A stretch of 64,000 bases of DNA from a virus, in the IMG/VR virus record IMGVR_UViG_3300049215_000802, positions 18,889 to 82,888 of that record; one strand, written 5' to 3'. Positions 18,844 through 60,857 of this stretch are shown piece after piece. Under the pieces are notes generated by a model. That model saw only the letters and a program-made list of their open reading frames with translations, was not told the DNA's origin and made no database searches. Every line of letters starts with the position of its first letter. Position 1 is the stretch's first letter. A program made the translations under genes and the position numbers.

Positions 18844-19130
18844 AGAGGTGCGCCCACCTGGAACAGGGCAAGCAATCGTTCCTGGATCGCATCGACCGAG
18901 ACAATCGGCCCGGGCATAACCGCTTGCACCTCTGCGGGAGTAAGCTTGAACCACTTGCCGTCGTAGCCGCTTTCGTCATCCCGGTAGACGATGACCAGAA
19001 CCTTGATCAATGCCCCTTCCGGTTTCGACCAGATCGCCTTTTTGGTCAGAGGATCACACCCGTGGAATGCCCACACCTCGTTATCGGTCGGTGGCTTGAA
19101 TGTCCAGATCGTCGGCTCCATTGCTTCCAT
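18837..19130 (-). CDS. Small phage protein, unknown
   Basis: A protein of 97 residues whose ATG overlaps the upstream stop (TAATG). MEAMEPTIWTFKPPTDNEVW, then GALIKVLVIVYRDDESGYDG and KWFKLTPAEVQAVMPGPIV. No family recognised. It is one link of a chain of overlapping small genes between portal and head morphogenesis genes. Confidence 0.55.
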   Translation of the reverse strand: MEAMEPTIWTFKPPTDNEVWAFHGCDPLTKKAIWSKPEGALIKVLVIVYRDDESGYDGKWFKLTPAEVQAVMPGPIVSVDAIQERLLALFQVGAPLC

Positions 19131-37067: not shown

Positions 37068-40000
37068 CTAGCCCGCGCCGAAGAAAGCCCGCACGACGTC
37101 GAGTGACCGCGTCTGTTTGGCCGGCGGAAGGCTCCGAATAATCCCGGTCCCGTAGCCCTTCGTCGTCAGTCGGCCGTCGAGCAACGCGACCACGCCGCGA
37201 TCGCTCTTGGTACGAATGAGCCGGCCGAAGCCTTGCTTGAACTGGATCGCACAGAGCGGAAGCGCCAGCCCGCTGAACCACGCCCACTTGTCGTTCTTCT
37301 GGCGATTCAGCAGATCGCAGCGCGCCTGATAGACCGGCTCGTCGGGTGTGGGGAATGGCAGCTTGTCGATGATGACGAGCGAGAGCGCTTCCCCCTGGAC
37401 GTCGACGCCGGCCCAGAATGTCCGAAGCCCGAACAGAACTGCGTGGCCGTCCTCGCGGAATCGGCGAATTGTTTCCTGCGTTCCGAACTCGCCCTGGCGC
37501 AAGACGGTCCAGCGCAGCCGTGAATCGAGCCGGTTGTAGACCTCGTCGAGCGCCTTTCGGCTCGTGAACAGGCAGAACGCTCGGCCGTCCGAAGCTAGGA
37601 GCAACGCCTCGATCTCGTTGGCGAGCCGATCGAAATACTCGATCGAGCCATCCTCGCGAAACTTCGACGGATCGAATGCGCTGCCATTGGCCGGCAGGTA
37701 GAGGAGCGCGTTGCGGCCAAAGTCGAACGGGGAATCAACGATGATCTCGCGGCCGTTTTCACAGCCGGTTCGACCGCGGAAATAGCTGAAGTTCCCGTGC
37801 GTCGAGAGCGTCGCCGACGTCGCGACGGTCGGCCACCGTGTCCATAACGCGCGATCGAGATCCTCCGCGACCGAGATCGGCGCGCACCTGAGCGCCGTCG
37901 TCGTGTTGCCCTTGCGTCCGACTGACTTCTCGACAAACGTCACGTGGGTATCGGCATCGCCCTGAAGCACCTGGCCGAACACATCGGCCCAGCCGCGGAT
38001 CCGGCTCGCGTAGTTTTCGAGCTGCTTTGCGTTGCGGGTCGGCTCAAGGTCTTTTAGATTCGGATCAAAGCTAATTCCGGTTAGGGGTTCATCGGTCGCC
38101 GCCCGCTTCGCCTGGCCGGCCAGCGCAAGAAGCGCCAACCGCACCTTTTCGGCGCGCGACGTGAGCCGTTCAGTCGCGGTGACAGAAAACGTCTGCCGTT
38201 GATCCGGTGCGAACTGCGCGAAGAACTCTTCGCTGGCCTCGCGTGCCGTGGCCATCTGCTCATCGGTGAAGCCAGCCTTGATCGGAAGCTTTCCGCGCAG
38301 CAACGACGGCACGGTCCAGTTCGTCGCCTCGATCGTGAACGCTTTGGTCGCGACGTCTTCGAGCGAGTGCGCTTCGTCGACGACAATCAGGTCACGATCA
38401 GGAAGAACGGCAACGCCGTCACTCGTCTTATCGCGCAAGGCAAGGTCGAGGCTGAGAAGAGTGTGGTTGACGACGATGACGTCGGCATCTTTCGCCGCGG
38501 CGCGCGCCTTCATCGCGAAGCAGGCATCGTACAGCGGGCACTCTTTGCCGAGGCACTCATCGGTCGTCGAGGTCACGTTACTCCGCAGCTCGGGCGTGAT
38601 CGTGAACGTCAGTTCGGCGAGATCGCCAACGAGCGTCTCCTCGGCCCATTTGTCGATTTGGGAAAACTCCCACGATTGGCCGAGCGCGAGCTGCGCGCCG
38701 CGTTCCTCGTCGAGTTTGAACAGGCAGAGATAGTTGCTCAGCCCCTTGAGGACAGCAAACTGGAACTGGACTGGCAAAACGTTTTTGAGAAAGGGCAGGT
38801 CCTTGCTGCAGTTGTGAGACGCCAAGCCCTCGGCAATGTAGGTCCGCGATGACGTTCGAATAGCTCGAACTGTTTTAGTCCCAACGAAGGTTTTTCGGAT
38901 GACGCGGTTACCATTCGCACTGTCACCGCTAACGGCCGGGATAGTTCCAACAAGATCTGGGTTGAACTTCTCCAACAACCGAGCCGGCCTAACTTGCCCC
39001 AGAAACCGCAGCATGTCCTTGCGATTGCCGAAGTAAAGGGCGAACATATCCTTGTGGCCCTCATCAGATCGCGTATGAAGCTGCGCCCGATAATCGAAGC
39101 CAAGTGCGGTTAGATAGCCACGAACGCGGTCAAGCATTGCGTTGGGCGACTGCGCGAACGCTAGGTGATTCGAGTGGCCGCCAGCGAGATTAGTCACTTT
39201 CTTCTGACTGAGATGGCCTTCGCCGTCAAAAGCCGCAGCGAGATAGCCGGCCTCGTAGCTTGTATCTATCTCCCACACGTCGGCAATTCGGATAATCTTT
39301 GAACCAAGCCGCTTACCAGCCGTTGAACAAAGTTGCTCCGTCGTCATCCATTTGATTTCCATGCGGTGCCCGACCAACCAGCGATGCTCGTCTGAACAGG
39401 TTACAGTCGTTCCGTCTTCGAGTTCGATTTCGTAACAGGGGCGCTCGATGTCCTGGACCGATTCAACGACGGAATCGCAAAAATGGCGGCGATTACCGAC
39501 TCGCTCCTCTTCAAAGGCAAGAAGGTGCATCCCTTCGGTAATGTCCTTGGCCGGAATGTAACGGAGATCGGCGGTCAGAATCTTTGTCTCAGGCGCAACG
39601 CAAAGCTGATCCTGAAGCGCTTTGCCTTCGGTCGAGACGATCGTTTTCTTCCCGGAGTAGATCGCAGGGATCAGGTAAGCTAGGCTTTTGCCGGTCCCGG
39701 TCCCCGCTTCGGCCAGGACGTTTTCGCCGTGAACCATGCCATCGGCAATCGCCTGCGCCAGCTGGACCTGGGTGGGCCGGCTCTCGTAGCCCGGCATCCG
39801 CTCGGCGATGACACCATTCGGCCCGAGGATCGCGGCCATATCGAGACGCGGCACATCATCGGTTTCGTCTTCGACGGACGCGAGGCTGTTGACCGGAACG
39901 GCGATCTCGTCGTCGTCCTCGTCGTCTTCGTCGTCGGGTATTGCGTGTGCCGCGCGCTCGAGCGTCTCCAGATTAAAGCCCAACTCGCCCAACTGACGGT

Positions 40001-40211
40001 GATACCGACGTAGCAGGCGAAGCAGGGCAAATCCCTGATCGCGCGTGACGCGCCCGGTCGCATCGACCTCGCTGAGGATGGCCGCGGCGCGCGGGTAGTC
40101 GAACGCGCTGAACCCGACGTTGTTGCGATCGATCGGAACGCCGCCGTCGTCACCGCGGTGCAGGAGACTGTCGGCGACGCGAACGAGCGGGTTATCCAGG
40201 TGCGTGATCAT
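37068..40211 (-). CDS. DinG/XPD-type helicase containing an intein
   Basis: The open frame has 1047 codons. Residues 141-203 carry RMPGYESRPTQVQLAQAI and AEAGTGTGKSLAYLIPA (Walker A). Residues 204-467 are an intein. The extein continues SKDLPFLKNVLP with Cys-containing region (CLGKECPLYDACFAMKA, a candidate FeS site), DRDLIVVDEAHSLEDVA (DEAH), SATLSTHGNFSYF, LFGLRTFWAGVDVQGEAL (motif V/VI). Spliced length is about 783 residues. DinG-like helicases unwind DNA with 5'-3' polarity. The insertion is just after motif Ia, a conserved site typical for inteins. Confidence 0.9.
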   Translation of the reverse strand: MITHLDNPLVRVADSLLHRGDDGGVPIDRNNVGFSAFDYPRAAAILSEVDATGRVTRDQGFALLRLLRRYHRQLGELGFNLETLERAAHAIPDDEDDEDDDEIAVPVNSLASVEDETDDVPRLDMAAILGPNGVIAERMPGYESRPTQVQLAQAIADGMVHGENVLAEAGTGTGKSLAYLIPAIYSGKKTIVSTEGKALQDQLCVAPETKILTADLRYIPAKDITEGMHLLAFEEERVGNRRHFCDSVVESVQDIERPCYEIELEDGTTVTCSDEHRWLVGHRMEIKWMTTEQLCSTAGKRLGSKIIRIADVWEIDTSYEAGYLAAAFDGEGHLSQKKVTNLAGGHSNHLAFAQSPNAMLDRVRGYLTALGFDYRAQLHTRSDEGHKDMFALYFGNRKDMLRFLGQVRPARLLEKFNPDLVGTIPAVSGDSANGNRVIRKTFVGTKTVRAIRTSSRTYIAEGLASHNCSKDLPFLKNVLPVQFQFAVLKGLSNYLCLFKLDEERGAQLALGQSWEFSQIDKWAEETLVGDLAELTFTITPELRSNVTSTTDECLGKECPLYDACFAMKARAAAKDADVIVVNHTLLSLDLALRDKTSDGVAVLPDRDLIVVDEAHSLEDVATKAFTIEATNWTVPSLLRGKLPIKAGFTDEQMATAREASEEFFAQFAPDQRQTFSVTATERLTSRAEKVRLALLALAGQAKRAATDEPLTGISFDPNLKDLEPTRNAKQLENYASRIRGWADVFGQVLQGDADTHVTFVEKSVGRKGNTTTALRCAPISVAEDLDRALWTRWPTVATSATLSTHGNFSYFRGRTGCENGREIIVDSPFDFGRNALLYLPANGSAFDPSKFREDGSIEYFDRLANEIEALLLASDGRAFCLFTSRKALDEVYNRLDSRLRWTVLRQGEFGTQETIRRFREDGHAVLFGLRTFWAGVDVQGEALSLVIIDKLPFPTPDEPVYQARCDLLNRQKNDKWAWFSGLALPLCAIQFKQGFGRLIRTKSDRGVVALLDGRLTTKGYGTGIIRSLPPAKQTRSLDVVRAFFGAG
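38811..39602 (-). other. Intein with LAGLIDADG-type homing endonuclease
   Basis: 264 residues between Cys204 and Cys468. The N-terminal block A is CVAPETKILTADLRYIP. Block B has the TCSDEHRW phrase. A LAGLIDADG-like helix reads EAGYLAAAFDGEGHLS. The C-terminal block is RTYIAEGLASHN followed by Cys. The first Cys, terminal His-Asn and +1 Cys are all those needed for splicing, so it is probably active. Confidence 0.9.
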
Positions 40212-44140: not shown

Positions 44141-45775
44141 ATGCCTGCCTTTCGCTGCGTCATCCTCGCCGCCGTCAGCTCCACGGCCCAGGTCGCCGAT
44201 TTGGCCGGCGATGAGAAGGAATCCATCCCGTACCAGCTGCGCCGCGGCCGCGAGATCATCGAAGCACGCGGCTGGTCCGAGGTTGCCGAGCCACTCGTCA
44301 TCCCCGGCCAGTCACGCTCGCTCAATTGGCTGCACGAGGCGCTGGAGCAGATCGACGCCTATCGCCAACTACGCGACCTCGCCGACGCCCGACGGATCGA
44401 CCTGGTGATCTGCCGCAACTACGACCGTCTCGCCCGGACCTCGACGCTCCAGCAGCAGGTGTCGGCCTATCTGAAGGAGCGCGGCGTCCAGATTTACGCG
44501 CTCGAAATGCCTGTCGAGCCGCACGACCCGCGCAGCTGGCGCCCGCGGTCCGACAGCACCCGCCTCTGGGTGGAGGCGATCGCCGGCGCACAGTCCGAAT
44601 CCTACGTCAACCAGCTCAGCAACTTCCACCGCTTCGGGATGGAGGGACGCACGAAGAAGGGCTGGCACGCCGAGGGGACGCCGGTCTACGGCTATCGCGA
44701 CATCGTGACACCCGATGGTTACGGGAAGATCCCGAAAAAGCGTGTTCCCGATCCAGAGACCTTTCCCGTCGCCCAGCGCATTTTTCGGATGCTCCTCGAC
44801 GGAAAGACGGGCGTCTACGTGATGCGCTGGCTCAACGGCATCGCCGACAATCCGGGCGGCACGCGTGCTCCGATCCCTAGCGCCCGCGGTGGTCTCTGGT
44901 CGACCCAGGCCGTGGTCAGCCTCGCCCGCAATCCCTTCTACGCCGGCAAAGTCGCCCGCTATCGCTTCACCCTGAGTCAGGATGGTCGGCGGCGCCGCAA
45001 GAGCACGCGCGAGCAGCCAGGGTTACTTGTCGATGGTGTCCACGAACCGGCCATTTTGTGGGAGGAGTGGCTTCGCGTTCAGGAGATTCTCACCGCACGC
45101 GGCAAGGTGGCCCCCCGCCTTCGCCGGCGCGATTACCTTTGGAGTGGCCTCGCCGTCTGCGGGTACTGTCTCGATCGCGGCGAGGCTGCTCCGAGTATGC
45201 GGTATTGCCACGACAAGCAGGCTAATCTTGATGGGCGCGTCCGCCACTACGAATACTTGGTCTGTTCCCATTATTCGGTATCGAGTGGCACCTACTGCCA
45301 GCGCAACTACATCCCGATCGACGCCTTCTGCACTGCGGTAAAGGAGTGGCTACACGCCGTCCTCTCCGATCCGCGGCTCATCGAACGCGCCGCGGCCGGC
45401 GATGAGGACGATCCGCACCAGCCAATCCGTGCGGACCTGGCGCGCGTCGACGAGGCCATCGCGCGTCTGAGTGGCGAGGAACGACGATGGGACCAGGCCT
45501 ATCGGCAGGGAGTAATTTCGCTCGAGCGGTACGGACAGGGCCTGCAGGACATGCAGCAGCAGCGTCAACGAGCCGAGTTAGAGCGGGCGACGTTAGCCAG
45601 CGCGCTAGAACGTGCGAGCTCCGCCGAGCTGCGCCGCGCTCAGCGCGATCGTGCCCTCGCCGATCTTCGCTCAATCGAGATCGACCCCGCCGATCCCGCC
45701 GTCGTTCGGCTGATCCACCAGGTGCTCGCCCAGATCCAGATCCGCAGTCGAATCCTGACGTTCGTTCCATACTAG
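44141..45775 (+). CDS. Large serine recombinase (phage integrase)
   Basis: A protein of 544 residues beginning two bases after the repressor stop. The resolvase domain has AAVSSTAQ (nucleophile Ser13), LVICRNYDRLARTSTL with the conserved Arg residues, and PIPSARGGLWSTQAVVSLAR in the recombinase domain. A zinc ribbon is visible (CGYCLDRGEAAPSMRYC). The end is a coiled coil (QDMQQQRQRAELERATLASA). Such enzymes recombine attP with attB without host factors. Its position at the edge of the prophage fits. Confidence 0.95.
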   Translation: MPAFRCVILAAVSSTAQVADLAGDEKESIPYQLRRGREIIEARGWSEVAEPLVIPGQSRSLNWLHEALEQIDAYRQLRDLADARRIDLVICRNYDRLARTSTLQQQVSAYLKERGVQIYALEMPVEPHDPRSWRPRSDSTRLWVEAIAGAQSESYVNQLSNFHRFGMEGRTKKGWHAEGTPVYGYRDIVTPDGYGKIPKKRVPDPETFPVAQRIFRMLLDGKTGVYVMRWLNGIADNPGGTRAPIPSARGGLWSTQAVVSLARNPFYAGKVARYRFTLSQDGRRRRKSTREQPGLLVDGVHEPAILWEEWLRVQEILTARGKVAPRLRRRDYLWSGLAVCGYCLDRGEAAPSMRYCHDKQANLDGRVRHYEYLVCSHYSVSSGTYCQRNYIPIDAFCTAVKEWLHAVLSDPRLIERAAAGDEDDPHQPIRADLARVDEAIARLSGEERRWDQAYRQGVISLERYGQGLQDMQQQRQRAELERATLASALERASSAELRRAQRDRALADLRSIEIDPADPAVVRLIHQVLAQIQIRSRILTFVPY

Positions 45776-45835
45776 CCACTCCTCGCGCTCGCCAGCCACG
45801 GCGAGAGGTCACCTACCTGCAATTACACGTTACGC
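45776..45835. other. Prophage 1 / older prophage junction (probable att site)
   Basis: The integrase ends at 45775. The capsid-like frame of the older prophage, read leftward, loses its family-like sequence after LVVVTLESV at about 45831 and then stops after only five foreign codons. The crossover should lie within a few bases of 45826-45835. The other attachment half is beyond the left edge, so the exact core cannot be read here. Confidence 0.55.
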
Positions 45836-46605
45836 TTTCGAGGGTCACCACAACCAGGTTGCCGAACTTCGACGGCGTGTAGTTTTCACGCGCGTCGCCC
45901 CAGGCCGCGTTCGTGTAGCTCGCGTCTTCGTTCACCGTCGAGAGCGACGCAAAGTCGTTCAACCGGATCCGGTTCTGCTGCTTCATGTCCAGAATCGGCA
46001 CCTTGATCGTGAACGGCTCCCACCACTTCGGCTGCGCCTGATAGTCCCGGACAATGCGCTTGGTCATGCTGTTGAGCACGACGTTGGAGAGAACCGACGT
46101 CGTGACCTCGTTCGCTTCACGGACGATCGACTCTTCCCAGTGGTAATTCCCGGTGAAGAACTTGTCGCCCGTGATCAAAACGTACGCCTCGCGGATCCCG
46201 GTCAGCCGCGGAATCCCGGTCAGGTGCGACGGCACGTCCAGCCCGAACAGCCGATCAAACGCCGCCTGCACCTTGTCGAGCGCCGTCGTGCCCTGCACGT
46301 AGCCCGGATCGAGGATGCTCGCGCCAACGCCCCGAATCGCCCGTTGGCCGAACACGTCGCCGAGTAGCCCGCGCAAACCGGCGATCGCGCCGTCCACCTC
46401 GCTCGCCTCGAACACCCGACCCGCGAACTGTTGGCGCACGTGCGCCTGCGCCGCCGACGGCAAGCCGCTCGCCGCCAACCGCGACTCCAGCTGCGCCGCG
46501 GCCATCTGCTGGCGCATGGGCGCCATCGCCGCCTCGACCGCCCGTTGCACCGCCGACTGAAACCCCGCGTCCAACCCGTTCCCCACTCCGCGTGCCCCGT
46601 CTGGC

Positions 46606-46644
46606 CTCCTCTCCCCTTGAGAGAGGGTTAGGGTGAGGGAGTCC
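46606..46644. repeat. Dispersed CCTCTCCC/GGGTTAGGGTGAGGG-type repeat inside the fused gene
   Basis: CCTCCTCTCCCCTTGAGAGA followed by GGGTTAGGGTGAGGGAGTC is a hairpin-like repeat of the kind normally found between genes. Here it is translated leftward as DSLTLTLSQGE. A relative is at 48950-49055. Confidence 0.7.
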
Positions 46645-46775
46645 CTCGACCCCGCCGACGGTTGAACCACGGTCGAACCTTGAATCTGCGCGTTCTGCCC
46701 CTCGCGAACGTCGCCGACCACCGCGCTCACACCAAGCTGCCCGGTCACGCCATTCCCTCCTCTCGCGTCCCCCAC

Positions 46776-46840
46776 CACCCGAAACCCGACACCCGACACC
46801 CCTCCGTCCTGTCTCGACACCCGAAACCCGACACCCACCC
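46776..46840. repeat. Tandem CCCGACACCCGAAACCCGAC repeat inside the fused gene
   Basis: Two blocks of ACCCGAAACCCGACACC, read leftward as VGVGFRVSRQDGG and VSGVGFRVV. The same unit forms intergenic arrays in this fragment and appears in the terminase frame at about 51497-51523. Confidence 0.7.
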
Positions 46841-47747
46841 CCTCGTCCTCTAGCCCCCACCCGGTATAATCGACCTCGGCCGGTCGCTCGGCCTGCTGGG
46901 CTTCCAGAATGCGATCAAACGACCCGCCAGCAGACGGCCGAATGACCAGGTCGCCCGAGTTGACCGACACCACCGCGTGCACGTCGAACCTGGCTTTGCC
47001 CCCGGCCTTGCTCGGCGACCGCAGCAGCTTCCAATCCGCCGAGATCCCGATCGGCGGCGCCGGGTGACCAGCGCTCGACGCCGACAGCGCTTCCCGGATC
47101 GTCTGAAAGACGCCGTGATCGTTCTCGCTCAACCGCAGCCGAGCGCGAATGCCGCGCCCAACTTCGTAGCGCGCGCCCTCGTATACCCCGACGAGATCCC
47201 GAAGACTGCGCGAGCCAGCCCGCGTCAGGTCCAGCGCCGTCGGGTGATCCAGAAACGCCGGCGCCCCGTTCCACAGCGGTGTCGCCTCGCGCAGCACCGA
47301 GTCCGAGTACACGTACCCGTTCTCGCTCACGCCCGGCCGCGCGATTGTCACCTCGACCAGCCGATGCGTTTCGTCCACGACAACCGCCTCGAGCGCCCGA
47401 TCGGCGACCTGCCCCGCGGCCGCCCCGGTCGAGCTAAAGCCGCCGACGTTCAATTGCCGATGCGCCTCTTCCTCGACGCCGTGCCCCAGCTTCACCCCGA
47501 ACCGATGCAGCGCCCGGGCAATTCGGTGCCGGGCGTCGCGCCGCTCGCCGTCCTCCAGCCCGCCCGTGCGGTCCAGCATGTCCCACGCCAGTCGCGCGTG
47601 GCTCTCGTCGTGAATCGGCAGCACCCGCTTCTCCGGCACCGCGAACTCCGCGTCCGGCAGCAGCGACCGCTCGTGCTCCGTCAACGTCGCCTCCCGCACC
47701 ACCGTCCCAATCGTCACTCCACCCTCCCGATTCCCCGCCCCACGGAG

Positions 47748-47908
47748 CTAGGTGCTAGGTGCTAGGTGCTAGGTGCTGGGTACTGGGGTTCAGGTGTCGG
47801 GTATCGGGTATCGGGTGTCAGGAGACAGTGGCTTATCTGACACCCGATACCCGATACCCGATACCCGTTCCCCACAACCTAGCACCAAGCACCTAGCACC
47901 TCGCACCG
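47748..47908. repeat. Large imperfect inverted repeat built of two tandem motifs
   Basis: Left arm: four to five copies of CTAGGTG, then TACTGGGGTTCAGGTGTCGG and GTATCGGGTATCGGGTGTC. Right arm: TGACACCCGATACCCGATAC and further copies, then AACCTAGCACCAAGCACCTA. The arms pair over most of about 70 bases around AGGAGACAGTGGCTTATC. It fills the whole interval between two genes of the older prophage. Confidence 0.85.
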
Positions 47909-47910
47909 AT

Positions 47911-48804
47911 CTACCGATTCCCCTCGAACGCCGCCGGCGGCACGTAGCCCAGCTCGTACACCGAGCCCGCGGCCCGCCTGGGCCGGCGCCAGCCGCTTTC
48001 CTCGTCCGGGTCAACGCCCTGGTCGTACTCGTCGCCCGGATCAACCTCGCGGAACAGCGGCCGCCCTTGCGCCGATAGTGCCGCCGGCCCGAAATCGCCG
48101 CCGCTCCCCGAGCGCTCCATCGGCGCAAAATCCCGATCCCCACGTCCGTCGTAGATCGCGCCGTACGCGCCGCGGCCGCCGCGCAGCCCCGGGTTCAGTA
48201 TCCCTTGATAACCGCCGTAGACGTCGATCCCCGTCTCGATCGTGCTCTGCAGATGCTCCGGGCTCACCCCCGATCCCTGGTACTCCAGCGGCGCCGCGCC
48301 CTGCGCGTGGTGCGGCCCCACGTACTCACCGTTCGAGCGCGGGCCAAGGCCCGTCGGTCTCATCCCCAGGTCCTCCTTCCGCGCAACCTCGCCCGGCCGC
48401 GCAAAGCTGCCGGGAACGCCCCCCAGCGCCGGCCCGTATACCCGGCTCTCATCAGCCAACGCGCCACCCGGCACCGGCCCGTGCACCTGCCCGTACGAGC
48501 TGGGCGCCAGGGTACCCACCAGCAACGCATCGCCCGGCGTCCCAATCGCCCCGGGCGGCGGCGTGCCGATCACTCGCGGCGGCCCCAGCGGCGCGGTCAC
48601 GTCGTCGGGAATCATCCCGTCGGCGAGCCTCCCCGGCAGCTCCAAATCCCGAAGGCTATAGCCCGTCGGGTCGATCGCGTCCGGCTGACTGTAGCCGGGC
48701 ATCTGCCCGGCAAAGACACTCGTCCCCGCCGGCGAGCTCGCAAACCACGGATCGATGAAAGGCCGCCGATCGTCAAACCGCGCGTTACGCTCACCCCGAG
48801 CCAT
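47911..48804 (-). CDS. Structural-region protein of the older prophage, unknown
   Basis: A protein of 297 residues with GGAGGGG four bases before the ATG. Very rich in Gly, Pro and Asp with little secondary structure (LGPPRVIGTPPPGAIGTPGD, GRGDRDFAPMERSGSGGDFG) and an end reading SVYELGYVPPAAFEGN. It sits between portal and protease genes, where scaffolding or minor structural genes occur. No family recognised. Its length suggests it is intact. Confidence 0.55.
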   Translation of the reverse strand: MARGERNARFDDRRPFIDPWFASSPAGTSVFAGQMPGYSQPDAIDPTGYSLRDLELPGRLADGMIPDDVTAPLGPPRVIGTPPPGAIGTPGDALLVGTLAPSSYGQVHGPVPGGALADESRVYGPALGGVPGSFARPGEVARKEDLGMRPTGLGPRSNGEYVGPHHAQGAAPLEYQGSGVSPEHLQSTIETGIDVYGGYQGILNPGLRGGRGAYGAIYDGRGDRDFAPMERSGSGGDFGPAALSAQGRPLFREVDPGDEYDQGVDPDEESGWRRPRRAAGSVYELGYVPPAAFEGNR

Positions 48805-48825
48805 TAGGCCCCTCCTTTGCCCCAC

Positions 48826-49108
48826 GTCCCCAGGTTCTAGGTGCTCCCCTTCCCCGCCACCCCACCTCTCCAGGTGCTCTCCCCCTCTCTACCCCACCTC
48901 CCCAGGTTCTAGGTTCCAGGTGTTAGTCCCCTCCCTCACCCGCCCGCAGGCGGCCTCTCCCGCTGGGAGAGGCGGAAGACGCGCGTCCCCGCTTATTCGC
49001 CGCCCGTTGCCAGTTCCCCCTCTCCAGCCAGGCTGGAGAGGGAGCGAGGGGGTGAGGCCCGACCCCGCCCCCGACACCCGATACCTGACACCCGACACCC
49101 ATCCCACG
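48826..49108. repeat. Intergenic array of dispersed repeats
   Basis: The interval holds CCCCAGGTTCTAGGTGCTC units, a CCTCACCCGCCCGCAGGCGG-CCTCTCCCGCTGGGAGAGGC hairpin, a CTCTCCAGCCAGGCTGGAGA hairpin and a final CGACACCCGATACCTGACAC run. No gene is seen in it. The units match those in the other gaps of this fragment. Confidence 0.75.
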
Positions 49109-50689
49109 TCACACCCGCACCGTCGGATCCGGCACGACCGTCCCCCGCCCCGGGTAGGGTGGCGGCTTCGGCTCGGCGAAACGCGGGTCGCGCTCGTCGA
49201 GCGGGTCCGGGCCGCGCAACGGTCCCGCGCGCCGCCGCGCCCTCGCGTTACGCCAGCTCGTCGTCGGCCCCGCCGCGCCGCTTGACGGCCCCGCGCCCGG
49301 GTCCGCGCCCGGCAGACTCGCGACCTCGCCGAGGAAGTGCTGGAAAACCCGCGAGGCCTCCTCGTTCGTCACCCACTGCCGATCGACGGCAATCGCCAAA
49401 GAATCGGTCAGGTTCTCGATCCCCTGCGCCACCTGCAGGCTCGCGTCCGGGTCCAGCTCCGGGAACTCGGCCGTGATGTCGTCGATTCCCACGTCGACAA
49501 GGCCGCGCCGATGCAGCGCCTCGACCGCGAGCGTCCGCATCACGCTCCCGAAAAAGAGCTGCCGCTCGCGGTAATGGAGGTACGTCGGCGCCGACATTTC
49601 CGAGGCGGTCCCCCGCGCGGTCCGCTCGGCCTCGGCGAGGAAGTACAGTGGCACGCCCGCTCCCGCCGCGATCATCAGCCGAATGGCGAGGCCGTCGTCG
49701 GCAACCTGCGGCGCCTGAATCTGCGGCAGCACCGCCGTCCACGTCTCGTTCTCGTTGCTCACGATCACGCTGCCGGGTGGCGGGGGGACGGCAAGCTCGG
49801 CCATCCGCTGGGTGACCGCCCGCCGATCCGCCCCCTTGATCTGAACGTGCCAGACGAACGCCGTCCGGTACTTGTTCAGCCGTACCCGGTCCGTGAGCCA
49901 ATCGCGATACCGTCGCAGCCAGGGAAGAATGGGCGCCAGGTCGCTCATTCCGCGGACAACGCCCGCCGGGCGGTTGACCGCGAAATGGAACATATCGCCT
50001 TTGTCCCACCACCGTCCCTCGGCCTGCAGCGCGCTCGGCATCCGCATCAACGTGTCCGGCGTCATTGGCTGCGCGGTCTGGTGGTACTTCAGCTCGTCTT
50101 CCAGATCGTCCGGGTTCGTCTCAATCCGATCGATGAGTGCCGCCGGCACCAGCCGAACGTAGCTCGTCAGGTCGTAGGGATTCGTGTGGACCGTGACGAA
50201 GATCTCGCCGTCGAGCGACAGCGCCGTCATCAGCGTGAACTGCCGCAGCCCCAAATCGTTCAGCGGGTGATGCCACCACAGGTCAATCTCCGCCTGAACC
50301 TTCGGGTCCGCCGCCTTCAGCTGCATCCCGTCGCCGAGCACGTGGTCCACCTGAAGCTGTACCAACCGGAATGCCAGCGGATTCGTCCGGTAATAGTCGG
50401 TCGCATTGTTCAGGTTCTCGATGATCTGGGCCCAGGTCAGCTCGCGCATCCCGCCCGAGATCAGCGAGCGCCAGCCGCGGTCTTCGTCGATAATGCTCTG
50501 GCTGAACGCCTGCGGGTTCACCTGCTCCGCGACGTCGGCCAGCGCCGCGCCCACCTTCCCATCGTTGGACACGAAAAAACTCGACGAGCCTGCCGAATCA
50601 GCAGAACGAGGCACCGCCACGCTCGGGCCGCCCGGGGCGGCAGCCGGCTCGTCGTAGACAATCCTCCGCAACCGATCCCGAAAACCCAT
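49109..50689 (-). CDS. Portal protein of the older prophage
   Basis: A protein of 526 residues. It has DYYRTNPLAFRLVQLQVDHV, LTLMTALSLDGEIFVTVHTN-like text, WWHHPLNDLGLRQFT, GVVRGMSDLAPILPWLRRYR, DWLTDRVRLNKYRTAFVWHV and AGVPLYFLAEAERTARGTAS, typical of one group of portal proteins in GC-rich hosts. The C-terminal 60 residues are Pro/Gly/Arg-rich. It appears intact, unlike its neighbours, and is unrelated in sequence to the portal of prophage 1. Confidence 0.85.
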   Translation of the reverse strand: MGFRDRLRRIVYDEPAAAPGGPSVAVPRSADSAGSSSFFVSNDGKVGAALADVAEQVNPQAFSQSIIDEDRGWRSLISGGMRELTWAQIIENLNNATDYYRTNPLAFRLVQLQVDHVLGDGMQLKAADPKVQAEIDLWWHHPLNDLGLRQFTLMTALSLDGEIFVTVHTNPYDLTSYVRLVPAALIDRIETNPDDLEDELKYHQTAQPMTPDTLMRMPSALQAEGRWWDKGDMFHFAVNRPAGVVRGMSDLAPILPWLRRYRDWLTDRVRLNKYRTAFVWHVQIKGADRRAVTQRMAELAVPPPPGSVIVSNENETWTAVLPQIQAPQVADDGLAIRLMIAAGAGVPLYFLAEAERTARGTASEMSAPTYLHYRERQLFFGSVMRTLAVEALHRRGLVDVGIDDITAEFPELDPDASLQVAQGIENLTDSLAIAVDRQWVTNEEASRVFQHFLGEVASLPGADPGAGPSSGAAGPTTSWRNARARRRAGPLRGPDPLDERDPRFAEPKPPPYPGRGTVVPDPTVRV

Positions 50690-50818
50690 CGCTCACCCGC
50701 CCCCTAAACCCCGTTCCCCAACGCCCCGGTCACCAGAACCCGTCCCCCAGAACCCGTACCCTAGAACCCAGCACCTAGCACCTAGCACCTAGCACCCATT
50801 CGTTCCGTCCCACTGCCG
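50690..50818. repeat. Intergenic CTAGCACCTAGCACCTAG-type array
   Basis: CAGAACCCGTCCCCCAGAAC and CCGTACCCTAGAACCCAGCA are followed by CACCTAGCACCTAGCACCTA. No gene or promoter is recognised here. It is the complement-orientation form of the units near 47750. Confidence 0.75.
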
Positions 50819-50819
50819 C

Positions 50820-51896
50820 TCAATCCCGAAACCGCATCCGCCAATCCCGATCCGGGTCCGTCGCCGCGATCACCGCCGACACAGCGGGGCCAGTCGAGGA
50901 CTTGGCCGCCTCGACCAGGAGCGCGACCGAGCTGAGAAAGTCGTCGTGTCCGCTCGTCTCCGGGACGTAGAAGCGCATCTGCCGGTTACCGGTCACTTCG
51001 CGGCGGGCGCATTCCACCTCGTGCCACCACTCCGTCGCCTCGCGATCGTCGGCGCCGTGAGCGTACCAGCGCAACCTCCCGCCGCCCGCGGCGGCCAACA
51101 GCTGATAGCCCAGCTCGGACTTGCGCGACGCCGAGAACGCGATTGAATCGACCACGTCCTCGCCCAGCGACAGCGTCAGAAACTCGGCTAACGGCGCGCC
51201 GATGCCGGTTTTGTCGATCGCGAGCTTGCTCACGTGCCAGTCGTGGCGAAGTAGCGTCGCCAGCTCCGCCCGCTGTCCCTCGTGGCTCCGCCCGGTCCAC
51301 CAGTACACCCCTTCCACCTCGACCACCGGCTCCCGATCGTCCAGCCCAACCTCCACCCACTCCACCCGCCCGATCGTCAGCACCGTCGAATCCCGCCGCG
51401 GCGCCCGCTCCCGTACCGCGGCATCACTCCCCGCCCGTCCCTCGTCCACCGACACTCGAGCCTCGCCTCCCGCCCCCCGTTCTCCATCCCCGGAAGCCCG
51501 AAACCCGATACCCGACACCCCGGTCGGTTCTTCGCTCGCCCCGGCCACGTCCAGCCCGGCCACCCAGGTCCCGTCGCCCTCGGCCCGCTCCCTCCGGCGG
51601 TGCGTCCCGCGCATCGCCTCGACCATCGCCCGGGTAAACAGCCCGGCCTCCTGGCCCAGCGGCCGCAGCTCAAACTGGGTCGTGAACATCGGGTGCTCCG
51701 GCCCGAGCCGCTCCCGCTCGCCTTCGACGAATCGGCCGTAGGCGGGATTGCTCTGGGCCACGACGTGCCAGGGATAGGCGAAATGCCGCCGCCGGCCGTC
51801 GCGCTTCTCCGCCTCGATCGCGACCTGAATCTGCTGGTGGAGCAAGGTCTGGTCGTCCCAGGCCGAGAGAGGCTGTACAGCACCAAAGTAGTATTC
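50820..51896 (-). pseudogene. Terminase large subunit, nuclease half only, 5'-truncated
   Basis: The frame opens at 51896 after a TGA and reads FGAVQPLSAWDDQTLLHQQI, then FAYPWHVVAQSNPAYGRFVE, WVAGLDVAGASEEP (first nuclease Asp), LAIDKTGIGAPLAEFLTLSL and HDDFLSSVALLVEAA (last Asp). The N-terminal ATPase with Walker motifs is absent. The middle contains an in-frame dispersed repeat (TGVSGIGFRASGDGERGAGG). The loss lies at the edge with the accessory segment. It cannot package DNA. Confidence 0.8.
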
Positions 51897-56760: not shown

Positions 56761-57393
56761 GTGATCACTGGAAACGCCGCGCTTGATCCTCGCACGGCTC
56801 GATTGCAAATGGAGGAGAGGCTGGCAACTTTGCCTCTCCGATTTCTGCCTAATCGTGCCCGAAGTTGGGAGAACGCAGCGTTCCCAAACATGGCGGCAAT
56901 CTATTGGAACCTGGCTCGCTCGTGCGTCGTTCCAGAACAGGATGTGTTTGCCGGGGCGGTGGCTGCGTTGATGGACCAGGGGAACAATCCTGCTGTTGTT
57001 GCTCGAGCCTCAAGAGCCTATCCAGCACTTGTTCGCCAGCATCATTTCTACCTGATGCTAAGAGAACACTACCCAATAGTCGTCCGCTCGGAAGAACTTG
57101 ACCTGAATGGTGTAGATCTGTTGATCGTCGAACAGGGGCGAGCGTATGGAATAGCGCTATCGGTCGAGACAGAGGCGGCACACTCATGGCAGCGGGTCAA
57201 GCAGCGTCGTCATCCCGAATCGCCCGAACGCCTACCGGTGCTGTATTTGTACGCCAAGCGAAGTGAGTACCGAATAGGCAACTTCTGGCTTCATCATCCA
57301 GATCAGTGGAAGCTGGTTCGAGACTGGATGAATCGGCTGCGACAGGGCGAGGATTGGATCACGGCTAGCGAGCTTCGATATGCACTGCAATAG
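56761..57393 (+). CDS. Protein of 210 residues with a PD-(D/E)XK-like core, unknown
   Basis: From GTG (an ATG 48 bases later is possible). LDLNGVDLLIVEQGRAYGIA, then LSVETEAAHSWQRVKQRRH, has the strand-turn-strand with Asp and Glu as in restriction-endonuclease-like folds, but the usual Lys after the second acid is not clear. It lies 119 bases before the Argonaute cluster and after the RusA gene. It may belong to the conjugative element, or be an accessory effector of the defence cluster. Fold call is tentative. Confidence 0.55.
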   Translation: MITGNAALDPRTARLQMEERLATLPLRFLPNRARSWENAAFPNMAAIYWNLARSCVVPEQDVFAGAVAALMDQGNNPAVVARASRAYPALVRQHHFYLMLREHYPIVVRSEELDLNGVDLLIVEQGRAYGIALSVETEAAHSWQRVKQRRHPESPERLPVLYLYAKRSEYRIGNFWLHHPDQWKLVRDWMNRLRQGEDWITASELRYALQ

Positions 57394-57511: not shown

Positions 57512-58441
57512 GTGCAAACTGAATCGCTTCAGTTAAATTTCTTCCCTATCGCCTTGCCGGTTGGCCCTCTCCCATTTCTTACACGCACCTTGACTCAGAA
57601 TGAAAAGTTGTGTGCAGGGGAACTCAGTTGGTCTGCTCCAGCCATAGATCATCCTAGCCAGCCCACTAAGGCCGTATTGATTGGCACTGCTCCGGCTGAC
57701 CTAAGAAGCTACACTACCGAACTCGTCCACGCTAACACAGCAAGCCCTTATGTCGTGAAATTGTTGTTGCAAGAATCGCTGGCAGCTGCCCTTGAGCGAT
57801 TGGGACGCAAAGTCGTGCATGAGCGGGTTGGCCTCCTCTGCTATCGGCCCGATGAGGTGGTAAGCGAGGGCGTGCCTGATCTAGTAGTAATGCATCGAGG
57901 CGTAGATATCAGAGTGGATCACTTCACAGCACAAGGTCGGCGGCTATTCGGATTCTTCATTACGACCAGAGTGCGCATGGCGTTTTCTAAACAAGTGCAA
58001 AGGGATCCCAGGTTGGTACGTGCGGCGCTGCAAGAGAGAGTCACCGTTGAGCGCGACGGCCGCTTCGTATCGGCCGTTTTAGTCGCTGAAGGAAGGTCTG
58101 CGACACAAATTCGAGTTGCGGTGGACGACCAAATAATCGACTTGCCGCGGCCAGATATTCAGATTCCGGCAAGCCAATCAGTGTTATCGCACTACTGTGC
58201 ATTGATTGGCGATCCTGAGGCAGCCACCCGAATACGAAGAGCGCTGCAGGTCGCCAGCTACCGATCGCGGCGCGACGGTCAACGGAATCGACGCTGGATC
58301 TCTGACCAGCTCGGGTATGTACGAAATTGGCTCAATTCCATTTCAACATATGAGAGATTCGCTTTGCAGTGGCCTCATAGCGACATCCAGTACTTTCTTC
58401 GAACACAGCCTCTTGAGGTTTACGCACGAGGTTCGCCGTGA
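57512..58441 (+). CDS. Stand-alone APAZ-like protein (Argonaute N-terminal-half-like)
   Basis: A protein of 309 residues from GTG. LQLNFFPIALPVGPLPFLTR at the start resembles the opening of Argonaute N domains. Then SPYVVKLLLQESLAAALERL, VGLLCYRPDEVVSEGVPDLV, RRLFGFFITTRVRMAF and IRVAVDDQIIDLPRPDIQIP, a beta-rich L1/L2-like order. Its last bases overlap the start of the short Argonaute (GTGA), so both proteins are coupled and probably form one complex. In published short-Argonaute systems this part is fused to the effector; here it is separate. The APAZ call rests on place and pattern. Confidence 0.65.
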   Translation: MQTESLQLNFFPIALPVGPLPFLTRTLTQNEKLCAGELSWSAPAIDHPSQPTKAVLIGTAPADLRSYTTELVHANTASPYVVKLLLQESLAAALERLGRKVVHERVGLLCYRPDEVVSEGVPDLVVMHRGVDIRVDHFTAQGRRLFGFFITTRVRMAFSKQVQRDPRLVRAALQERVTVERDGRFVSAVLVAEGRSATQIRVAVDDQIIDLPRPDIQIPASQSVLSHYCALIGDPEAATRIRRALQVASYRSRRDGQRNRRWISDQLGYVRNWLNSISTYERFALQWPHSDIQYFLRTQPLEVYARGSP

Positions 58442-59751
58442 TTCAGCCGGCATTCACCTATCAGCGTCTTCCGCGCCCAAGCTACCTCTTTGCCAACGAT
58501 CAAAGATTCGCGAGTGCACTTTCTGGACTTCGAGTAGCCGGCCCATACAGTGTCGGTGACTGCCCAAAGGAACCACGGATTCTTTTTGTCTTTCCAGACG
58601 AACTTCGAGACAAGGCCAACCAACTATTCCTTGCCCTGAAGAACGGGGTTGGACCGTTTAGAGGTACGGAGAGCCTATTGCGTGTTCAGTTATCGGCTGG
58701 AGCTGTCAAAAGACTTCAACCTTTTTCAGTACAAAACATGCCCCATGATCATGCGGCTACTGCATATCGATCGGCAATTGAGAAGTACCTCGCTACCAAC
58801 CACCTGGACATCGACCTTGCACTTGTTATTCACAAAAAGACAGAAAGAACAGACCAAACTGGTAATCCCTATTTGACCAGTAAGTTTCCCTTGTTAGTCC
58901 GGAACATTCCAACCCAAGTGGTAACTGAGGAGCTTCTGGAGAGAGCCGAGACTTTTCAGTGGTCAGTTGCAAACATAGCGCTTGCTATGTTTGCAAAGAT
59001 GGGTGGCCAACCTTGGGCAGTGGAATCAGGGCTAAGTGATGACACGTTGGTCGTGGGAATCAATCGGGCGACTGTTGGTCAATCACGGCTGTATGCGTTT
59101 GCCAGTATTTTCGCGCATAACGGAACTTATCTAGGCACAACGCTGTCCAAGCCTGCCAACGATCGCGCTACCTATCTGCAAGCATTGCGGTCGACGGTTA
59201 CCGATTCATTGACCGAATGGCGAGATCGGTTTGGAACTCCAGTTAATCTCGTACTCCACATGCGGAAGGAGGCTAGCAAGGAAGAGCTTGAGGTAATTGA
59301 GACGTGTATTCGAAGCGTGAGCACTGATATTGTACGGGCGCATGTCGCGCTTAGGCTCGCCCCTGGCGACTATATGGCGATAATTGATCCACAGAATGAG
59401 ACTGGCACGCCGCCATTAGGTACCTATATCCAGTTAGGGTCGCATCGTGCCATGCTGCAAATCTCGGGACAAGACCCAGACGGCTCCGCCTTTGGCAGGA
59501 TCGTTAACTCGGGACCGTGGCACATTAATCGGTTGTACGAGTCGGCAAACGCTCCGCCACTCGATGTTCTCTGCACCCATATTCTGGCACTCTCGGCAAT
59601 GAATTGGGCGAGCTTAAATGCTGAAGCATCGCCGGTGACCATAAAGTATCCGGCGGAACTCGCCGAGCTATTAGGGCGATTCGCTGAAGCCGGCTTCGAT
59701 CTCGGCGAACTTCGGGACTTATCAGTGTTACGGAGGGTATGGTTCATCTAA
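58438..59751 (+). CDS. Short prokaryotic Argonaute (MID-PIWI), catalytically inactive
   Basis: A protein of 437 residues from GTG, with GAGG seven bases upstream. The MID 5'-phosphate pocket is intact: Tyr145 and Lys149 (NPYLTSKF), Gln160 (NIPTQ) and Lys187 in NIALAMFAKMGGQPWAVES, a hallmark phrase. In the PIWI fold the first catalytic Asp is Asn209 (VVGINRA), and the LHMRK stretch carries no second acid, so it should not slice. Inactive short Argonautes bind guide and target and switch on an effector. The next gene is such an effector. Confidence 0.9.
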   Translation: MIQPAFTYQRLPRPSYLFANDQRFASALSGLRVAGPYSVGDCPKEPRILFVFPDELRDKANQLFLALKNGVGPFRGTESLLRVQLSAGAVKRLQPFSVQNMPHDHAATAYRSAIEKYLATNHLDIDLALVIHKKTERTDQTGNPYLTSKFPLLVRNIPTQVVTEELLERAETFQWSVANIALAMFAKMGGQPWAVESGLSDDTLVVGINRATVGQSRLYAFASIFAHNGTYLGTTLSKPANDRATYLQALRSTVTDSLTEWRDRFGTPVNLVLHMRKEASKEELEVIETCIRSVSTDIVRAHVALRLAPGDYMAIIDPQNETGTPPLGTYIQLGSHRAMLQISGQDPDGSAFGRIVNSGPWHINRLYESANAPPLDVLCTHILALSAMNWASLNAEASPVTIKYPAELAELLGRFAEAGFDLGELRDLSVLRRVWFI

Positions 59752-60857
59752 TGGATCCTGCCTCGCCGCGACGCCCTTTTCCTGTCGTGGTGCTGCTCGG
59801 TGCTGGCGCCAGCATGGATGCTGGCTTGCCATCCGCTGTTGAACTACAGAAGAGGTTGGTTCTCAGACTTCAACAGGATAACGAGATCGATCTAAAGCGT
59901 GCACTTGGGCTTATCGTGGGAGGTATAGCGTTCCAGCGAGGCGTCGAAGGATTCCTTGAGTCGAGCTCTGTCGATATTGAAACGGTGCTGCGCGTTGCGC
60001 AACTCCTGGAAAACAGGTCAACTCATCCTCTCGCTGGCTACGTTGCAGTATGGAACTCGTCGTTAGACAAGGTTTCGCCGGGTGGGGATGGGAGTGTATT
60101 TCACCGCCTAAACCAGTTCGCCCGTGATGCTTTGAACGAGTGGCTGCGAACGCCAGATGACCCAATCATGGTTAAGTATTTGGCCCAGATATTCCAGCTA
60201 CGACGTCCCTGGGCTCGACGGTCGGACAATGTATGCATGCCGCAAATATTCACCCTGAACTACGACCTGTGCTTAGAAAAGGCCCTCCATTACGAGAGCC
60301 TTCCATTCACCACGGGATTCTCAAATGGCCTCTGGACACCTAAGGAATTCGACCGCAACGACATAGTTCGAGTCTACAAGCTTCATGGATCGTTTGGCTG
60401 GGTCCGAGACCCACGAACTCTCTTGCTCTATGATCGCGACGCGGCCCTTGGTCGAACGGACGTGGAGTTCTTTTCTGGCGAGACATCAGACGAGCTCATA
60501 TTCGGTGTCGACAACAAGTTACAGGCGATGCAGCCATTCCTTTGGCTGGCCCATCAATTCTACGAGGCAGTCTCTGCCGCAACCTATATCGTGGCTATTG
60601 GTTACCGATTCGCAGATGACTATGTCAATCAAATAATTGGGCAGGCAATGGCGTCGGACGCGTCAAAGCGACTGCTAGTGGTTTCACCACGCTTCGATAC
60701 AGCGGTACTTGAGCATGCCAGGGGGATGAACTACTATCCCGAGCGCACTATTCCAATTCAATGCACGGCAAAGATTGCATTACAGGATCAAGACATGATA
60801 CGTTCGAAACTGCAGGAACTGGAGGAGATTAGGCCTGCTGAAACACCATTCAGTTGA
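59751..60857 (+). CDS. SIR2-family effector of the Argonaute cluster
   Basis: A protein of 368 residues. The ATG overlaps the previous stop (TAATG). Rossmann motif VVLLGAGASMDAGLPSA (residues 13-29), then FTLNYDLCLEKAL (TxNYD) and VYKLHGSFGW (His212 is the likely catalytic base), and a late AIGYRFADDYVNQIIGQAM. SIR2 effectors of defence systems destroy NAD+ and stop infected or plasmid-bearing cells. No APAZ segment is fused to it. An upstream ATG at 59739 has poor spacing. Confidence 0.9.
   Translation: MDPASPRRPFPVVVLLGAGASMDAGLPSAVELQKRLVLRLQQDNEIDLKRALGLIVGGIAFQRGVEGFLESSSVDIETVLRVAQLLENRSTHPLAGYVAVWNSSLDKVSPGGDGSVFHRLNQFARDALNEWLRTPDDPIMVKYLAQIFQLRRPWARRSDNVCMPQIFTLNYDLCLEKALHYESLPFTTGFSNGLWTPKEFDRNDIVRVYKLHGSFGWVRDPRTLLLYDRDAALGRTDVEFFSGETSDELIFGVDNKLQAMQPFLWLAHQFYEAVSAATYIVAIGYRFADDYVNQIIGQAMASDASKRLLVVSPRFDTAVLEHARGMNYYPERTIPIQCTAKIALQDQDMIRSKLQELEEIRPAETPFS

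Follow-up and report, generated by a model that had tools for sequence, protein, structure and literature searches.

Bacteria and archaea contain split long-B prokaryotic Argonautes (pAgos) whose downstream effectors include SIR2-like proteins, and AfAgo-N and AfAgo form a heterodimer (fAfAgo) (Manakova et al. 2024, PMC10954474). In GbBPAS, a long-B pAgo is paired with a SIR2_2 protein (bAgaS); the Argonaute and SIR2 proteins form a complex, nicotinamide adenine dinucleotide (NAD+) is depleted and infection is aborted (Song et al. 2023, PMC10620215). The SIR2 protein of this system is toxic alone, the Ago suppresses it, and a plasmid trigger releases it, leading to NAD+ loss and cell death (PMC10620215). 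Here we describe a three-gene cluster that appears to encode a catalytically dead long-B Argonaute divided between two chains, followed by a SIR2 effector. The cluster lies in a 64,000-nt stretch of DNA (the window, positions 18,889 to 82,888 of IMGVR_UViG_3300049215_000802, an IMG/VR contig of 82,888 bases), and all coordinates below are those of the window unless given with another locus. Its three open reading frames (ORFs) are uninterrupted and lie on the same strand:

57512..58441, + strand: Ago-N subunit, assigned by fold and profile matches as the N-L1-(reduced PAZ)-L2 half of a long-B pAgo; 309 residues, GTG start
58438..59751, + strand: MID-PIWI subunit of a predicted catalytically inactive long-B pAgo, assigned from PADLOC, RsAgo and the tree; 437 residues, GTG start
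59739..60857, + strand: SIR2_2 effector, predicted NADase of the bAgaS / Aga_SIR2 class II type; 372 residues, start at 59739 or 59751

Genes 1 and 2 overlap in the sequence GTGA. The TAA stop codon of gene 2 occupies 59749-59751, and the SIR2 gene begins either at Met5 (ATG at 59751), giving a TAATG junction, or at the start of the longest ORF, giving a 13-bp overlap; a GGAGG lies close to both candidate starts. Both overlaps had been described in an earlier sequence-only reading of the window, and the second holds if the SIR2 protein begins at Met5. Judged from the PADLOC and Pfam matches of its proteins and from its retention elsewhere, the cluster is a conserved defence cluster, beyond chance.

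The 437-residue protein matches the PADLOC pAgo model at E = 8.6e-61, with 1e-52 for class II (pAgo_II) and 6.8e-20 for class I, and Pfam Piwi at 2.2e-12. In a PDB sequence search it aligns to RsAgo residues 305-737 (2.7e-27), the MID-PIWI part only. An alignment with nine relatives shows that the MID residues Y145, K149, Q160 and K187 are invariant, while the position of the first PIWI catalytic Asp is occupied by N209 (LVVGINRA) and the region of the second Asp reads HMRKE. On the strength of these residues, the protein retains the pocket for the guide 5′ end but has lost its slicer site, which is the usual state of long-B pAgos. The four pocket residues and the exchange of Asp for Asn had already been picked out in the sequence-only reading, and both are borne out by the alignment.

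The 309-residue protein alone yields nothing useful in Pfam, PADLOC, NCBIfam or PDB sequence searches, and BLASTP against individual long-B or Haloplanus N-halves finds nothing significant. Its AlphaFold2 model (predicted local distance difference test (pLDDT) 78.7, predicted template modelling score (pTM) 0.73) has 44 fold matches in the PDB at E<=1e-3, every one of them an Argonaute or APAZ protein, in line with the earlier suggestion of an APAZ or N-L1-L2 fold. The best match is RsAgo (2.5e-7 over about 309 columns), AfAgo-N matches at 1.4e-5, and the SPARTA/SPARSA APAZ chains are weaker. Profile comparison with hhalign points the same way. A two-sequence N-half profile matches the N-halves of single-chain long-B Argonautes with a probability of 87 (P 3.9e-6; reversed control, probability 1), and a four-member profile does so with a probability of 97.6 over columns 3-270 (P 3.2e-12; best of 40 column shuffles, 5.3). 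A homologue of the 309-residue protein, the N-half at locus L103, matches PADLOC pAgo_II directly at positions 2-247 (1.3e-5). An hmmsearch match to EcAgo/RsAgo made with alignment A3 was rejected as evidence for the 309-residue protein, because A3 holds single-chain long-B sequences. Profile–profile comparison and predicted fold identify this protein as the N-half of a long-B pAgo, with N, L1 and L2 regions; its length and the strands modelled at residues 176-212 would suit a reduced PAZ lying between the two linkers.

The 372-residue protein matches PADLOC Aga_SIR2 class II at 7.3e-57 and Pfam SIR2_2 at 2.6e-13, and its AlphaFold2 model resembles the solved antiphage SIR2 NADases SIR2-HerA (3.7e-12) and ThsA (5.8e-6). 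The NAD and His motifs ascribed to it in the sequence-only reading are present as GAGAS/GLP, TLNYD (N174, D176) and KLHGS (H216), each of them invariant or almost invariant. In GbAgaS, N155 (equivalent to ThsA N112) is required for NAD+ loss and toxicity (PMC10620215), and N174 is probably its counterpart here.

Two origins had been offered for this arrangement: a long-B Argonaute split into two chains, or a short pAgo system of the SPARSA kind whose APAZ was freed from its SIR2 domain. APAZ and the long-B N-L1-L2 region do share a fold, and the weaker fold matches of the N-half include SPARTA/SPARSA APAZ chains, yet RsAgo matches over the whole N-half and better than any APAZ, and the MID-PIWI protein scores as class II rather than class I. 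The SIR2 protein is of the SIR2_2/bAgaS type, only distantly related to SIR2-APAZ according to Song et al. (PMC10620215). We placed the MID-PIWI proteins in a tree rooted on short pAgos, having dropped L128, L133 and L134 (wrongly picked ORFs) and L006 (very long branch) from the first tree. The window and every other SIR2-linked long-B Ago fall into a single clade of 24 rows (ultrafast bootstrap (UFBoot) 98 / SH-like approximate likelihood ratio test (SH-aLRT) 84), outside the short clade. Joining the split systems to the short pAgos is rejected marginally in an approximately unbiased (AU) test (p=0.036). A freed APAZ is highly improbable on these grounds, and it is the split long-B Argonaute that fold, profiles, phylogeny and the conserved split favour.

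The same split recurs in related genomes. Locus L014 comes from a genome whose phylum was scanned for the N-half (291 genomes, cut-off E<=1e-3); three genomes had one, that of L014 included. This phylum includes the Armatimonadetes genome of L025, which places L014, L102, L103 and L124 in Armatimonadota. The order N-half, MID-PIWI, SIR2 is complete at two loci (L102, 291/437/369 residues; L103, 303/443/360 residues), and parts of it survive at two more. At L014, a separate 304-residue N-half ORF lies just upstream of a MID-PIWI gene whose product is 47% identical to that of the window, and the contig ends before the next gene; at L124, the contig starts inside the Ago gene, in the MID-PIWI C terminus, and a SIR2 gene follows that is very near the one at L102 (summed branch length about 0.08). 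Within the MID-PIWI tree, the window, L014 and L102 form one group (100/100) with L103 nearby, and in the SIR2 tree the SIR2 proteins of split systems form one clade (98/95). Beyond this phylum, within the reach of a four-sequence N-half profile, none of 400 genomes from the phylum of a Chloroflexi genome and none of 294 from that of a Planctomycetota genome gave a match. Viral-contig scans with the N-half alone or the MID-PIWI protein alone returned no relative, and a scan with the alignment returned five single-chain long-B Agos without SIR2. Plasmids searched by megablast and phages searched by tblastn gave no match.

These loci also bear on whether a single-chain gene was broken in the window by a sequencing error or a recent frameshift. 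The two products add up to the length of one long-B Ago (309 + 437 residues), and single-chain SIR2-linked long-B Agos are common, as such a break would predict. Against it, L014, L102 and L103 are split at the same position, with start and stop codons overlapping or abutting, at only 20-31% (N-half) and 31-48% (MID-PIWI) identity to the window. The frame of gene 2 contains many stops upstream of its start, so the junction is an ordinary gene overlap of the ATGA type rather than a long frame broken by a single base; the 437-residue ORF begins at a start codon of its own and is served by a plausible ribosome site. The conserved split refutes an error, and decay of one gene into two is equally contradicted, leaving a broken gene extremely improbable.

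Several other arrangements were seen among the loci sampled. Two Armatimonadota loci (L122 3775-6961 and L123 3779-6949) carry split long-B Agos with a HEPN effector, not SIR2 (PADLOC Aga_HEPN, 1.6e-102 and 6.2e-70), and L125, from the same phylum as L014, carries a single-chain SIR2-linked long-B Ago. In the Armatimonadetes long-B Ago at L025 3985-6275, the halves share one frame with a single stop codon between them, possibly an in-frame break or another split. In Anoxybacillus (L017 5007-7348; also L018), a 422-residue MID-PIWI gene is followed by SIR2. No N-half gene lies upstream at L017, where a neighbouring gene on the - strand begins about 300 bp before; its MID-PIWI protein groups among single-chain SIR2-linked Agos, and this Ago may be truncated or its N-half encoded elsewhere.

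The tree allows a tentative and rather unlikely scenario in which the split is the older state of this branch and single-chain BPAS arose by re-fusion of two genes, instead of split forms arising by repeated fission. It draws on the fact that AfAgo, the archaeal and HEPN-linked Armatimonadota systems and the deepest SIR2-linked systems (the window group and L103) are all split, with the single-chain SIR2-linked Agos nested inside; AfAgo, Haloplanus (L009), Jordarchaeum (L078) and the HEPN-linked splits branch just outside the SIR2-linked clade. On the MID-PIWI tree, re-fusion takes 2 changes versus about 4 for independent splits. The forks that decide this are weakly supported (83/73 and 86/89), sampling favours relatives of the window, and AfAgo sits on a long branch. 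Grouping the four split systems of the SIR2-linked clade together is compatible with the data (AU test, p=0.37).

With its gene order and split conserved, its three parts homologous to known families, its guide pocket and NADase residues intact and its slicer site lost, the cluster is very probably, by analogy, a split defence operon of the BPAS type, in which a heterodimer loaded with guide RNA senses invader DNA and unleashes a SIR2 NADase. As extrapolated from AfAgo/AfAgo-N and GbBPAS, the 309- and 437-residue proteins would come together as a heterodimer that stands in for a single, catalytically dead long-B Argonaute, and its MID pocket would bind a short 5′-phosphorylated guide, most likely RNA. 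The guide would pair with invader DNA, and the heterodimer would keep the SIR2_2 NADase silent until the target is bound. Once freed, the NADase would destroy NAD+, stopping or killing the cell and aborting the infection or plasmid invasion. Some points weigh against this model. The N-half has no direct sequence-family match, and its assignment draws on profile–profile comparison and fold; the alignment used for folding included long-B N-halves, making the two lines of evidence not fully independent. Confidence in the N-half model is poor over its final ~30 residues (pLDDT<50). Only single chains were folded, and the heterodimer, the type of guide and target and the trigger are argued from analogy.

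Prophage sequence makes up most of the window and includes terminase, portal, capsid and large serine integrase genes. Between 52 and 64 kb, G+C drops sharply to 0.50-0.53, and this stretch encodes PIN, Replic_Relax, a TrwB-like coupling ATPase, RusA, a MazE-like protein, the Ago cluster and a Tn-type resolvase. The cluster is probably cargo of a low-G+C integrated mobile element and not part of the phage gene set. Such a setting, adjoining a prophage and containing Replic_Relax, coupling-ATPase and resolvase genes, would also suit decaying cargo whose genes are intact by chance and no longer serve in defence. All three ORFs are nevertheless full length, lack internal stops and keep every motif conserved in their families, and we consider decay very unlikely; the preferred interpretation remains a working split BPAS-type operon.

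A resolvase-like gene also adjoins the SIR2 gene at L124. Upstream of the cluster, at 56761-57393, lies a gene for a 210-residue protein that has no convincing Pfam or PADLOC match; its stretch GVDLLIVEQGRAYGIAL could be a PD-(D/E)XK nuclease-like core. This gene was left out of the system, being 118 bp from the cluster, with none noticed upstream in L014, L102 or L103. Elsewhere in the window, head genes occur a second time, on the - strand at 44141-51845 beside the large serine integrase of the main prophage. This set is incomplete (terminase large subunit, portal, head maturation protease). G+C in this region is 0.66-0.71, and the high-G+C head genes span 45.8-51.8 kb. They suggest that the contig contains a second prophage or the remains of one. 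The phage helicase at 37068-40211 carries a LAGLIDADG-like segment between its helicase domains (Pfam LAGLIDADG_3, 3.6e-4), a sequence match that suggests an intein.

Among described systems, AfAgo-N/AfAgo resembles the window in having an N-L1-L2 gene directly upstream of MID-PIWI, an inactive PIWI and an effector gene directly downstream. Unlike AfAgo-N, which lacks PAZ, the N-half of the window retains a segment that matches the reduced PAZ seen in RsAgo-like proteins. The AfAgo effector is a SiAga2-like membrane protein, whereas that of the window is a SIR2 protein, and AfAgo branches outside the SIR2-linked clade. The long-B Argonautes RsAgo and EcAgo (BPAN) are similar in fold and sequence to both Ago parts but are single chains with a nuclease effector, and rows for EcAgo-like and alphaproteobacterial long-B Agos lie on another long-B branch. 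SPARSA and SPARTA have a two-chain Ago and an N-L1-L2-like (APAZ) chain that controls an NADase, as is predicted for the window. Their NADase is fused to APAZ and their MID-PIWI belongs to the short clade, whereas in the window the predicted NADase is a third protein on its own and comes from a different SIR2 subfamily.

In BPAS, too, an inactive long-B MID-PIWI has a SIR2_2 effector directly after it, one belonging to the same family (PADLOC Aga_SIR2 class II) as that of the window, and the MID-PIWI protein of the window shares a clade with single-chain SIR2-linked long-B Agos. The BPAS pAgo is a full-length single chain, in contrast to the two chains of the window, L102 and L103; the SIR2-linked single-chain Agos in this sample are mostly ~630-650 residues long and without a reduced PAZ, with L015 (759 residues) as an exception. 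By analogy, the cluster probably works like BPAS without being a canonical BPAS.

The sequence-only reading had seen a different architecture here, which does not hold, since split long-B pAgos with downstream effectors (PMC10954474) and the pairing of a long-B pAgo with SIR2 (PMC10620215) are both published. No paper joining Argonaute and Armatimonadota was found in the literature searched, which shows only that the lineage has lacked attention there. The known repertoire of mechanisms is unchanged. With the switch spread over three proteins, the system is convenient for asking which Ago half silences the NADase and which transmits target binding, and it bears on whether long-B Argonautes have split repeatedly or re-fused. 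The window is thus a further case of two published kinds, the split long-B pAgo and BPAS, from a deep lineage that appears undescribed, and in this added bacterial lineage a two-chain, catalytically dead Argonaute sensor that keeps a reduced PAZ segment is predicted to accompany a free SIR2 NADase.

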